Source: Allocatelliglobosispora scoriae
GTDB lineage: Bacteria > Actinomycetota > Actinomycetes > Mycobacteriales > Micromonosporaceae
Length of the DNA: 64,000 nt
NCBI RefSeq assembly: GCF_014204945.1
Contig: NZ_JACHMN010000002.1
Coordinates: 4,115,001 to 4,179,000, forward strand
Direction: 5' to 3'
Under the pieces are notes generated by a model that saw only the letters and a program-made list of their open reading frames with translations, did not search any database and was not told the DNA's origin. Positions 5,142 to 29,754 of the stretch are shown piece after piece (positions within the stretch are counted from its first letter, which is position 1; every line of letters begins with the position of its first letter). A program made the position numbers and the translations under genes.

Positions 5142-5182
5142 CCAAGATCGCCGCAACTCTTCAAGAGTTGCGGCGATCTTGG
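5142..5182. repeat. Long intergenic palindrome, family A copy 1
   Basis: Perfect 20-bp arms around a single central base, sharing the core CAACTCTTCAAGAGTTG with copies at 5904, 23389, 23557 and 27366. It follows the stop of the nitroreductase gene, so it may act as a terminator, but no T-tract is present. Confidence 0.8.
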
Positions 5183-5903: not shown

Positions 5904-5928
5904 GCACCAACTCTTCAAGAGTTGGTGC
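5904..5928. repeat. Intergenic palindrome, family A copy 2
   Basis: Perfect 12-bp arms (GCACCAACTCTT and complement) around one base, downstream of the narK stop in the 214-base gap before the nitroreductase gene. Apart from the nitroreductase promoter that must lie here, I see nothing else in the gap. Confidence 0.8.
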
Positions 5929-23388: not shown

Positions 23389-23419
23389 TTAGCACCAACT
23401 CTTCAAGGGTTGGTGCTAA
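23389..23419. repeat. Palindrome, family A copy 3
   Basis: TTAGCACCAACTCTT and its near-complement (one mismatch) around one base. Together with the copy at 23557 it brackets about 140 bases that hold no gene. Within them GATCGCGTTGTTTCC and GGAAACAGCGCGATC form a further imperfect stem (about 23448-23514). Confidence 0.75.
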
Positions 23420-23556: not shown

Positions 23557-23589
23557 TTTAGCACCAACTCTTGAAGAGTTGGTGCTAAA
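23557..23589. repeat. Palindrome, family A copy 4
   Basis: Perfect 16-bp arms (TTTAGCACCAACTCTT and complement) around a single G, ending 5 bases beyond the stop codon of the small minus-strand gene. The flanking A and T runs make this copy the most terminator-like of the family. Confidence 0.8.
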
Positions 23590-26128: not shown

Positions 26129-28009
26129 GTGCCCCGCCCCTTACCCCTTCCTGACCCCGGCGTGCCCGACAGCAGATCAGCGCTGCGATTCCTCTTCTGG
26201 TTGGTGCGGCAGCAGTGGCGCACGCTCATCATCGGCATGGGCTTCGGGATCGCGTGGATGGTGGCGCAGGCGCTGTGGCCCTACACGATCGGCCGCGCGA
26301 TCGACCTGGGCGTGCGCGGTGAGGACACCCGCTCACTGATCATCTGGGCGACGGCGTTCTTCCTGCTCAACGCGGTGATGGCGGCGTCGGGCATCATGCG
26401 GCACCGGTTCGCCGTCTACAACTACCTCAACGCTTCCTACCGGGTCATCCAGCTCACGGTGAATTCGGCCAACAAGCTCGGTGCGACGCTGCCCAAGCGG
26501 ATCGCGGCCGGCGAGGTCATCAGCATCGGCAACTCCGACGTCAACCACATCGGCGGCGCGATCGACATCATGCTGCGGGGTTCCGGCGCGGTCGTCTCGC
26601 TCGTCGTCGTCTCGGTCATCCTGCTCAACATGTCGTGGCTGCTCGGACTGGTCGTGCTCATCGGCGTACCCGTGATGATGTCGGCGGTCGGGCTCCTGAT
26701 CAAACCGCTGCACGTGCGGCAGGCCGCCTACCGGGAGCAGCAGGGCAAGCTGATGAGCCAGGCGAGTGACATCGTCGCCGGGCTCCGGGTGCTGCGCGGG
26801 GTCGGCGGCGAGTCGGTCTTCTCCGGGCGCTACTTCTCCCAGTCGCAGGACCTGCGCAACGCCGGTGTCCGGGTCGGCAAGGTCGACGCCCTGCTCGAAT
26901 CGGCCCAGGTGCTGCTGCCGGGGCTGTTCCTGGCGCTGGTCACCTGGCTCGGCGCGCGGTTCACCATGTCCGGCGCGATCGAGCTGTGGCAGTTCATCGC
27001 GCTCTACGGGTACGCGGCCTTCCTCGTCATCCCGCTGCGCACGATCGTCGAGGCGACCGACAAGATCACTCGCGGTCACGTCGCCGCGCGGCGGATGGTG
27101 CGCCTGCTCCGGCTGGAGCCCGAGATCACCGATCCGGCGGAGCCCGCGGAGCTGCCCGCGGGCGGTTTCGAGCTGCACGACCCGGCGTCCGGGCTGACCC
27201 TGCCGGGTGGACGCTTCACCGTGCTCGCCGCGTCGGCTCCCGAGGACGCGACGGAGATCATCGAGCGGCTGGGGCGGTACGTCGACTCCGACGTCATCGC
27301 CCGCCCCTTCGTCCGCCTGCCGAGCCAGGGCGGCCGACCGGCACCGGCTCCAGACCGGATGACACCAACTCTTGAAGAGTTGCGGCTGGTGGAGAGCGTC
27401 CGGCGGGAGGGTGCACTGCTGTCGGAGGTGCGCGAGCAGGTGCGGGTCGAGGAGAGGCAGGCCGAGGAGGTGGCTGGTGGCGTACCCCTCCGGTTGGTCG
27501 GACGGCGCACCCTGCGTGAGCTGATCCTCGTGACCGACAACGACGGCCAGATCTTCGCCGGGCCGCTGCGCGCGGAGCTGGACCCGACCGATCGCGCGAC
27601 CGACTCCCAGATCTGGGCGGCGCTCGCCGCCGCCAGCGCGACCGACGTGGTCGAGGCGCTGCCCGAAGGGCTCGACGCGGTCGTCGCCGAGCGCGGCCGG
27701 GAGTTCTCCGGCGGCCAGCAGCAGCGGCTCCGGCTGACGAGATCACTGCTCACCGGGGTGCCGACGCTGCTCATGATCGAGCCGACCAGCGCCGTCGACG
27801 CGCACACCGAGGCCCGGATCGCGGGCCGGATCGGCGACTACCGGCAGGGCTTGACCACGCTCGTCGCCTCCACCAGCCCGCTGATGCTCGACCGCGCCGA
27901 CCACGTGATCTACGTGGAGGACGGTGCGGTCGTCGCCGAGGGCACGCACCGCGAACTGCTGCGCACCGAACCGCGATACCGCGCGACGGTCACCCGAGCG
28001 GAGGACTGA
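26129..28009 (+). CDS. Heterodimeric ABC exporter subunit with degenerate nucleotide-binding domain
   Basis: 626 residues: type IV exporter transmembrane domain (~1-330, about six helices) and a C-terminal NBD (~345-626). Where its partner has GPSGAGKST, this protein has AASAPEDAT, so Walker A is lost and the Lys is replaced by Asp. The Q-loop Gln reads as Asp (VTDNDG), Walker B is shortened (LLMIEPTS) and the switch His is replaced (TTLVASTSP). The signature FSGGQQQRLRLTRSLL (526-530 onward) and the D-loop SAVD are intact. A ~60-residue insertion before the Q-loop contains a family A palindrome. Start is GTG. The next gene, 5 bases away, encodes the complementary half. The transported substrate is unknown. 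Confidence 0.88.
   Translation: MPRPLPLPDPGVPDSRSALRFLFWLVRQQWRTLIIGMGFGIAWMVAQALWPYTIGRAIDLGVRGEDTRSLIIWATAFFLLNAVMAASGIMRHRFAVYNYLNASYRVIQLTVNSANKLGATLPKRIAAGEVISIGNSDVNHIGGAIDIMLRGSGAVVSLVVVSVILLNMSWLLGLVVLIGVPVMMSAVGLLIKPLHVRQAAYREQQGKLMSQASDIVAGLRVLRGVGGESVFSGRYFSQSQDLRNAGVRVGKVDALLESAQVLLPGLFLALVTWLGARFTMSGAIELWQFIALYGYAAFLVIPLRTIVEATDKITRGHVAARRMVRLLRLEPEITDPAEPAELPAGGFELHDPASGLTLPGGRFTVLAASAPEDATEIIERLGRYVDSDVIARPFVRLPSQGGRPAPAPDRMTPTLEELRLVESVRREGALLSEVREQVRVEERQAEEVAGGVPLRLVGRRTLRELILVTDNDGQIFAGPLRAELDPTDRATDSQIWAALAAASATDVVEALPEGLDAVVAERGREFSGGQQQRLRLTRSLLTGVPTLLMIEPTSAVDAHTEARIAGRIGDYRQGLTTLVASTSPLMLDRADHVIYVEDGAVVAEGTHRELLRTEPRYRATVTRAED
27366..27382. repeat. Palindrome family A copy 5, in frame inside the ABC gene
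   Basis: CAACTCTTGAAGAGTTG, the same 17-base core as the intergenic copies, here encoding part of TPTLEELRL in the insertion of the degenerate NBD. Flanking bases on the left (ACAC) also match the intergenic copies. Confidence 0.75.
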
Positions 28010-28014
28010 CCACG

Positions 28015-29754
28015 ATGAGGGAGATCCTTCCCATCGCGGACGGCAAGGCTGTCCGCGCCTATGCCGTCAAGCTGATCCGCACCCACCGGCGCGGTCTGGG
28101 CTGGACCGTCGGCCTGCACAGCCTCGCCGCCATCGCGATGCTCGCCGGACCCAACCTGCTCGGCCGGATCATCGACAGCGTCAGCCACCCCGGCGGCACC
28201 ACCGGCCGGGTCGACCTGCTCGCGCTGCTGCTCGTCGCATCGATCGCCCTGCACGCGTTCATCATCCGATTCGCCGTCTACCAGGGCGCCAAGACCGGTG
28301 AGCACATGCTCGCCGACGTGCGCGAGGAGTTCGTCGACCGCGTCCTGGCCGTGCCGCTCTCCACCGTGGAGAAGGCCGGCACCGGCGACCTGATGGGGCG
28401 GGTCTCCCGAGACGTCGGCTCCCTCAACCACAGCGTGCGGCGGGGAGTGCCGGAGATCTTCGTCGCCGTCGTCACCGCGCTGCTCTCAGCCGCCGCGCTG
28501 ATCCTGGTCAGCCCGCTGATGACGCTGCCGTTCCTGCTCGGCATGCCGCTCGTCGTCGCCTCCTGCCGCTGGTACCTGCGCCGCGCCACCCCCGGCTACC
28601 TGCGGGAGAACGCCGCCTACGCCGACATCACCGACTCGCTCTCCGAGACCGTCGAGGGTGCGCGGACCACCGAATCGCTCGGCTACGGCACGCGGCGGCG
28701 CACGGACATCGACAGGAAGATCGCCGGATCGTACGCCGCCGAGCGCTACACGCTGGGTCTGCGGACGCGCCTGTTCCCCTTCTTCGACGCCGGGTTCGCC
28801 GTCTCGATCACCGCGACGATCCTCTTCGGCGGCTACTTCTACTACCGCGGCTGGGTCTCGATCGGCCAGGTCGCCGCCGCCGTCACCTACACCCAGCAGC
28901 TCGTCTGGCCGATCGAGCGGATGCTCAACTGGCTCGACGAGCTCCAGGTCGGCGGTGCCGCGCTCGCCCGGCTCATCGGCGTCGGCCTCGTCGCCGACGA
29001 ACGCAGCGACTCCGGACTGCGACCCGGTGACGAGCCGCTGCGCGCCACCGATGTCCGCTACTCCTACGTGGCCGGCCGTGAGGTGCTGCACGGGGTGTCG
29101 CTGCAGCTCAAGGCGGGGGAGCGGCTCGCCATGGTCGGCCCGTCCGGCGCTGGCAAGTCGACGCTGGGCCGGCTGCTCGCCGGGATCCACCCGCCCACGC
29201 AGGGCCGCGTCACCGTCGGCGGCGCGGACATGTCGGCGCTGCCGCTCGCGGTCCGCCGCAGCGAGGTCGCCCTCGTCACCCAGGAGCACCACGTCTTCCT
29301 CGGCACCCTCCGCGACAACCTGCTGCTCGCCCTGCCCACGGCGGCCGACGAGGAGCTGTGGGCGGCGCTGCGCGCGGTCGACCTCGACGGGTGGGTCGCC
29401 GGGCTGCCGGAGGGGCTCGACACCGAGGTCGGATCGGGCGGCTTCACCGTGCCGCCCGCGCAGGCACAGCAGCTCGCGCTCGCCCGGCTGGTGCTGGCGG
29501 ACCCGCACACGCTCGTGCTCGACGAGGCGACCTCGCTGATCGATCCGCGGGCGGCCCGACACCTGGAGCGTTCGCTGGCGGCGGTGCTCTCGGGGCGTAC
29601 GGTGATCGCGATCGCGCACCGGCTCTTCTCCGCCCACGACGCGGACCGGGTCGCGGTGATCGAGGACGGCCGGATCGCGGAGCTCGGTTCGCACGACGAG
29701 CTGGTCGCGGCCGACGGTTCCTATGCCGCGTTGTGGCGTTCCTGGAACGCGTAG
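28015..29754 (+). CDS. Heterodimeric ABC exporter subunit with intact Walker A but degenerate signature motif
   Basis: 579 residues: transmembrane domain (~1-320) and NBD (~340-579). Walker A GPSGAGKST with Lys381, Q-loop VTQEHH, Walker B TLVLDEATS and switch His in AIAHRL are intact. The LSGGQ position reads VPPAQ. Paired with the upstream subunit, only one composite ATP site (this Walker A with the partner's SGGQ) can be functional. This is an extreme form of the asymmetry known from heterodimeric exporters. It starts 5 bases after its partner's stop and is followed by a palindrome. Confidence 0.92.
   Translation: MREILPIADGKAVRAYAVKLIRTHRRGLGWTVGLHSLAAIAMLAGPNLLGRIIDSVSHPGGTTGRVDLLALLLVASIALHAFIIRFAVYQGAKTGEHMLADVREEFVDRVLAVPLSTVEKAGTGDLMGRVSRDVGSLNHSVRRGVPEIFVAVVTALLSAAALILVSPLMTLPFLLGMPLVVASCRWYLRRATPGYLRENAAYADITDSLSETVEGARTTESLGYGTRRRTDIDRKIAGSYAAERYTLGLRTRLFPFFDAGFAVSITATILFGGYFYYRGWVSIGQVAAAVTYTQQLVWPIERMLNWLDELQVGGAALARLIGVGLVADERSDSGLRPGDEPLRATDVRYSYVAGREVLHGVSLQLKAGERLAMVGPSGAGKSTLGRLLAGIHPPTQGRVTVGGADMSALPLAVRRSEVALVTQEHHVFLGTLRDNLLLALPTAADEELWAALRAVDLDGWVAGLPEGLDTEVGSGGFTVPPAQAQQLALARLVLADPHTLVLDEATSLIDPRAARHLERSLAAVLSGRTVIAIAHRLFSAHDADRVAVIEDGRIAELGSHDELVAADGSYAALWRSWNA

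Follow-up and report, generated by a model that had tools for sequence, protein, structure and literature searches.

The 64,000-nucleotide stretch of Allocatelliglobosispora scoriae DNA analysed here (hereafter the window; class Actinomycetes, family Micromonosporaceae) carries two adjacent genes for ATP-binding cassette (ABC) half-transporters, subunits 1 and 2, which quite probably assemble into one ABC transporter of type I (ABCB-like), a heterodimer with one possible nucleotide site and a single-ATP cycle. Subunit 1 has lost its P-loop and keeps a perfect ABC signature, and subunit 2 keeps its P-loop and has lost the signature. A first-pass annotation of the window had proposed that the two sets of losses are complementary, and we find both together throughout a family of such gene pairs.

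Each half consists of a transmembrane domain (TMD) followed by a nucleotide-binding domain (NBD), with the TMD belonging to the ABC_membrane family, unlike the NBD–TMD order and the ABCG fold of the fungal pleiotropic drug resistance (PDR) transporters (Pfam). In subunit 1, ABC_membrane (PF00664) scores 86.8 bits over residues 34–301 (Pfam cut-off 28), and ABC_tran (PF00005) reaches 21.9 bits, below its cut-off of 25, and covers only the C-terminal part of the NBD (NBD1), which can be aligned along the entire NBD of subunit 2 (NBD2) with a probability of 99.9. The residues at the Walker A position of subunit 1 include neither a glycine-rich loop nor a lysine, the Q-loop glutamine is replaced (by asparagine) and the switch histidine is lost, in line with the losses first annotated, and the signature is indeed perfect (Table). 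The annotation had also described the Walker B motif as shortened, which does not hold: the motif is of normal length, the aspartate alone is lost (replaced by Ile550), and the catalytic-glutamate position (Glu551) and the D-loop are kept. Subunit 2, whose start codon follows the subunit 1 stop codon after a gap of 5 bases, scores 105.1 bits for ABC_membrane (cut-off 28) and 87.7 bits, above the cut-off, for ABC_tran. Its Walker A, Q-loop, Walker B and switch histidine are intact and VPPAQ stands in place of the signature, exactly as the annotation had stated.

Table. Features of the half-transporter pair, its NBD1 insertion, the dispersed palindrome and two further pairs of the same genome (ORF, open reading frame; REP, repetitive extragenic palindromic; C1 and C2, contig handles)
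Feature	Position	Strand	Basis
Subunit 1, half-transporter (TMD + NBD1) without functional P-loop, 626 residues, GTG start	26129..28009	+	open ORF
Subunit 1, Walker A position: VLAASAPEDATEII, residues 365–378, no Gly-rich loop, no Lys	27221..27262	+	sequence and predicted 2-residue turn
Subunit 1, in-frame insertion of ~57 residues (~392–448) in NBD1	27302..27472	+	gapped in the other 51 alignment rows; low model confidence
Subunit 1, REP-like palindrome copy CAACTCTTGAAGAGTTG within the insertion	27366..27382	+	motif search
Subunit 1, Q-loop position: TDNDGQIF, Asn471 in place of Gln	27533..27556	+	translation, alignment
Subunit 1, intact ABC signature FSGGQ (FSGGQQQR)	27704..27718	+	translation, alignment
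Subunit 1, Walker B/D-loop: LLMIEPTSAVD, Asp lost, Glu kept	27767..27799	+	translation, alignment
Subunit 1, H-loop position: LVASTSPLML, switch His lost (STSPL)	27860..27889	+	translation, alignment
Subunit 2, half-transporter (TMD + NBD2), 579 residues, ATG start	28015..29754	+	open ORF
Subunit 2, Walker A: GPSGAGKST	29137..29163	+	translation, alignment
Subunit 2, Q-loop Gln423-Glu424 (VTQEHHVF)	29281..29286	+	translation, alignment
Subunit 2, signature position: VPPAQ, LSGGQ lost; reads VPPAQAQQLALAR	29449..29463	+	translation, alignment
Subunit 2, Walker B: LVLDE (LVLDEATS), Asp503 and Glu504	29512..29526	+	translation, alignment
Subunit 2, switch His535 (IAHRL)	29617..29619	+	translation, alignment
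Palindrome CAACTCTTGAAGAGTTG, 5 copies in the window	5154-5170, 5908-5924, 23396-23412 (1 mismatch), 23565-23581, 27366-27382		
L087, further P-loop-less pair, same genome	C1:1103200-1108000		
L088, further P-loop-less pair, same genome	C2:534700-539300		

The motifs thus give the arrangement of known heterodimeric exporters, i.e., one consensus composite site and one noncanonical site, and they are best read, in support of the earlier interpretation, as those of a heterodimer in which one composite site is complete and the other is dead. The live site would be built from Walker A, Gln423, Asp503, Glu504 and His535 of subunit 2 together with SGGQ of subunit 1. At the other site, subunit 1 would contribute no P-loop, glutamine or histidine and an incomplete adenine-binding region, and subunit 2 no signature; judged from these motifs and the predicted models, this site probably binds no nucleotide. 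Because the pocket looks gone, we infer an exporter driven by one ATP per cycle, in which substrate would be loaded in the inward-facing state, one ATP would be sandwiched at the single site and close the NBDs, which would pivot on a permanently protein-packed dead side, and hydrolysis at Glu504 of subunit 2 would reopen them.

The co-occurrence of the losses was followed in 83 loci, picked for their score with the family's own profile or through a related-locus search. They comprise 76 complete pairs, five loci that are cut off (L023, L205, L206, L214 and L216) and two outgroup pairs with a P-loop (L111 and L112; best NBD1 scores of 151 and 145 bits), the cut-off loci and the outgroup pairs being left out of the count. 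Subunit 1 lacks the P-loop pattern in 76/76 and carries SGGQ in 76/76, leaving the degenerate site of every complete pair apparently without a P-loop able to hold ATP; subunit 2 has the P-loop in 76/76 and a canonical signature in 0/76. An AHR-type switch is found in none of the 76 subunits 1 and in all 75 readable subunits 2. Automatic flags of a canonical subunit 2 signature in L005, L212 and L215, and of a subunit 1 switch histidine in L117, were judged false on reading. In each of the 76, the partner genes lie side by side on the same strand, and their order never changes. Since the loci were picked in this way, these fractions describe the family and are not those of a random sample; several pairs share one genome, and among those of Nonomuraea some are nearly identical. 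The one subunit 2 without a readable switch is that of L102 (genome G373), whose frame departs from the family past the D-loop, possibly through a frameshift or an assembly error.

Two further sets of sequences agree with these counts. A contig scan returned 23 loci: one (L025) is a remote match, and the other 22 are clearly related to the pair and come from Micromonosporaceae and Streptosporangiaceae. In a 52-row alignment of subunits 1 the P-loop is present in 0/52 and FSGGQ in 51/51 readable signatures (L023 is cut). A search with an NBD1 profile found relatives throughout the class: among the 56 loci scoring at least 160 bits, Walker A occurs in 0/55 readable rows (L141 is unaligned), and below 160 bits the rows are mixed (five without Walker A, eight with it, one unreadable) and look like outgroups. 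Within the family, no subunit 1 homologue with an intact Walker A was therefore found. It is hardly credible that subunit 1 is a pseudogene that decayed in this strain, or a sequencing error. Key ATP motifs are absent from it and the window gene has an insertion without counterpart in its relatives, as decay would predict, but the frame is open, purifying selection is evident (54–71% identity to distant relatives) and identical motif losses are fixed in every complete pair across many families, SGGQ being kept in all. The conserved homologues with the same losses led us to reject this explanation.

The Walker B motif of subunit 1 varies within the family, having lost the aspartate and kept the glutamate in 53 of the 76, kept both in 12 and taken other forms in 11. 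With the glutamate kept in 65/76, it is Walker A rather than Walker B whose loss is universal, and the decay of Walker B is secondary or partial. The subunits 1 with a full Asp-Glu pair and no Walker A (L089, L090, L095, L097, L101–L104, L107 and L220–L222) suggest, as far as their sequences go, that Walker A went before Walker B. What replaced the lost elements is itself recurrent: many subunits 1 have an acidic PED/PEE-like stretch at the P-loop position, and the replacement signature of subunits 2 is conserved as a type, mostly xxPAQAQQ(L/I/V)ALAR. In addition, NBD1 is shorter ahead of the signature than NBD2 (median 128 versus 148 residues in the 76 pairs). The mean pairwise identity of NBD1 is 0.425 in its nucleotide-binding part and 0.621 in its signature-bearing part, and the corresponding values for NBD2 are 0.598 and 0.744. 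The part of NBD1 that would belong to the dead site is thus the loosest, and the part that would serve the live site is kept.

Asymmetric exporters with one degenerate site are well described, and the first-pass annotation had called the window pair an extreme case. MsRv1273c/72c likewise consists of adjacent half-transporters of the type I fold and combines a consensus site with a degenerate one; its degenerate half, however, departs from the consensus in two residues only, Glu to Asp (D497) and His to Gln (Q528), and ATP occupies both sites of the structures described (PMC12038006), whereas Walker A is gone in the window pair. TM287/288, TmrAB and BmrCD are also bacterial heterodimeric exporters with one degenerate site (the Walker B region of the BmrCD chain YheI reads LILDQSLSAVD), and their degenerate halves, where shown or described, keep the P-loop, unlike those of the window family. 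Pdr5 is reported to have changes in all motifs (PMC7756269), nearly all those of one site being altered, including the partner NBD signature (LNVEQ), which resembles the window pair; yet Pdr5 is an ABCG-type, single-chain, eukaryotic protein, and its Walker A has a Lys to Cys replacement with ATP still bound at the inactive site (PMC8421411, PMC7756269), where subunit 1 of the window has lost the whole loop. The Pdr5 structure paper calls the PDR transporters the most extreme asymmetric case and reports ATP in the inactive site of Pdr5 (PMC8421411). ABCG5/G8 has both signature and Walker A altered at its degenerate site, as in the window pair, but the Walker A change is Lys to Arg alone and the fold is type II; in human degenerate sites, according to the same review, the NBD2 signature is changed in all (PMC7756269). 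Measured against these reports, the window family appears, from its sequences and models, to go beyond both MsRv1273c/72c and Pdr5, in that the dead-site pocket looks gone. The case is not a one-off: the trait is shared by a class-wide family.

These examples also define the alternative of an ordinary degenerate-site exporter whose dead site holds ATP by other contacts, cf. Pdr5. Known degenerate sites do bind ATP (PMC8421411, PMC12038006, PMC7756269), and the Walker B glutamate that most subunits 1 keep fits such a site. We consider this unlikely, because the entire glycine-rich loop is absent, compared with single-residue replacements in Pdr5, and a PED/PEE-like stretch is common in its stead; because the subunit 1 model predicts a turn of only two residues there; because NBD1 is some 20 residues shorter ahead of the signature; and because the partner signature is lost as well.

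The turn was seen in AlphaFold2 single-chain models built from alignments of 20 (subunit 1) and 19 (subunit 2) rows, with a mean predicted local distance difference test (pLDDT) score of 74.9 and 70.5, respectively. At the P-loop position, the subunit 1 model has a strand (363–368) joined by two residues to a helix starting at 371; in the subunit 2 model, a strand (371–375) is joined by seven residues to a helix starting at 383. The top Foldseek matches are the two chains of MsRv1273c/72c, 9iqg_A for subunit 1 (VIA-align Z score of 25.4) and 9iqg_B for subunit 2; TM287/288, TmrAB and BmrCD rank high for both subunits, and YheI is the best sequence match of subunit 1 in the PDB. The chains of IrtAB are among the close structural matches too, which counts in favour of the pair being a regulator or channel gated by ATP, or else an importer built on an exporter fold, as IrtAB is. 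Such a function is decidedly unlikely: everything needed for hydrolysis seems to be present in the single composite site (Walker A, Walker B glutamate, histidine and SGGQ), the nearest matches are multidrug-type exporters, and next to the pair we recognised no gene for a receptor or channel partner.

A maximum-likelihood tree of the TMDs from 31 pairs and 14 other exporter halves, made with a quick method and supported by the Shimodaira–Hasegawa-like approximate likelihood-ratio test (SH-aLRT) alone, separates the 31 subunits 1 by a branch with a support of 99 and the 31 subunits 2 likewise with 99. The loss of the P-loop maps to one change on this tree, and each clade splits into the same two groups, of 10 and 21 loci. 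Of the outgroup pairs, the consensus halves cluster with subunits 2 (95), and the degenerate-type halves cluster weakly with subunits 1 (81), with long branches flagged. These outgroup groupings lead us to suggest a TM287/288-like heterodimer as the likely ancestor, its degenerate half losing the P-loop afterwards, a suggestion only, as the support is weak. The mirrored main division of the two clades, the same-order adjacency of the genes and the complementary losses also make it very improbable that subunit 2 has some other half as its partner, with subunit 1 in an accessory role; moreover, a homodimer of subunit 2 would be devoid of any signature, and one of subunit 1 of any P-loop.

Several observations weigh against a heterodimer with a single nucleotide site. 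The Walker B glutamate kept in subunits 1 is not explained by a wholly dead site alone. The models are of modest confidence, with predicted template modelling (pTM) scores of 0.55 (subunit 1) and 0.60 (subunit 2), and many exporters, homodimers included, lie within 1 Z (VIA-align), so the fold cannot single out degenerate-site halves. Finally, mutation in either Walker A blocks the function of ABCB1, as a review states (PMC7756269), and by the title of a study of TAP, Walker A lysine mutations of TAP1 and of TAP2 both interfere with translocation; loss of the P-loop is thus not harmless in studied relatives. If either mutation blocks ABCB1, the P-loop-less state needs compensation elsewhere in the protein. 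In the same review, ATP at degenerate sites is read as a possible permanent glue over many cycles (PMC7756269). We give about even chances to an obligate single-nucleotide family in which direct contact of the PED-type turn of subunit 1 with the PAQAQQ-type loop of subunit 2 now does the work of this glue, an arrangement that would have become fixed once and then persisted throughout the class. We recognised no literature on a P-loop-less exporter family, which is weak evidence of absence, as most subscription papers lie outside the search coverage.

If a single-nucleotide transporter is indeed formed, ABC transport can run on one nucleotide, and the family would offer a natural test of the model of the second ATP as glue, a system for counting one ATP per cycle without a confounding second bound ATP, and a clean background in which individual motifs could be put back or taken out. 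It also bears on annotation, since both halves are named ABC transporter ATP-binding proteins (in plasmid examples), though one half probably binds none.

The insertion in NBD1 is located C-terminal to the helix following the P-loop position and, in the 52-row alignment block, is confined to the subunit 1 of the window. It contains one copy of a 17-base palindrome, CAACTCTTGAAGAGTTG, of which there are 282 exact copies per strand of the A. scoriae genome and 0 in a reversed control. The copies frequently occur as inverted pairs about 44 bases apart, some within coding frames, and the palindrome was not seen among the loci fetched from other genomes. Two Nonomuraea members, L018 and L020, have different NBD1 insertions; together with that of the window, they are consistent with relaxed constraint on NBD1.

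Clustering of the ORFs that flank 22 loci and the window pair, as a lead to the substrate, was blurred by spurious high-GC frames and gave only flanking ORFs common to five loci (L003, L004 of Hamadaea tsunoensis, L007, L011 and the window); from their translations we take those of the window to be alr, a hydrolase, tsaE, tsaB, rimI and tsaD. Plasmid members have varied neighbours with no common substrate pointer. On a Streptomyces globosus plasmid (L225; NZ_CP030864.1), a related pair adjoins dpgABC-type, cytochrome P450, aminotransferase and ribosomally synthesized and post-translationally modified peptide (RiPP) maturation genes, which indicates that some family members may serve natural-product export. 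RamA/RamB (lanthipeptide export) and StrV/StrW (streptomycin) are at most candidates for studied members. A scan for sigma-70-type promoters and terminators found none, nor was a tRNA found in the 64,000 nucleotides of the window.

The family is widespread. Genome tallies, which are lower bounds because few candidates were scored per genome, were set at E ≤ 1e-50 for the NBD1 profile, as Walker A states mix below 160 bits. At this threshold, relatives occur in at least 167 of 394 genomes of the class (60/138 genera); in a sample of 396 genomes from the phylum they occur in at least 26, of which 12 belong to 6 families outside the class; the window protein itself has matches at E ≤ 1e-100 in at least 185 of 300 genomes of its family (30/44 genera). 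Phage records gave zero matches at E ≤ 1e-20, and among the best 25 of 107 and 177 NCBIfam matches no curated cut-off was reached. The A. scoriae genome has 25 ABC_membrane matches, of which six lie in three P-loop-less pairs (the window pair, L087 and L088), and for each of the other 19 the surrounding piece holds an ORF with a P-loop pattern. L088 belongs to a more distant clade, in which subunit 1 reads VLHDPTTAVD and subunit 2 is without the D-loop aspartate (DEATAEAGSAG).

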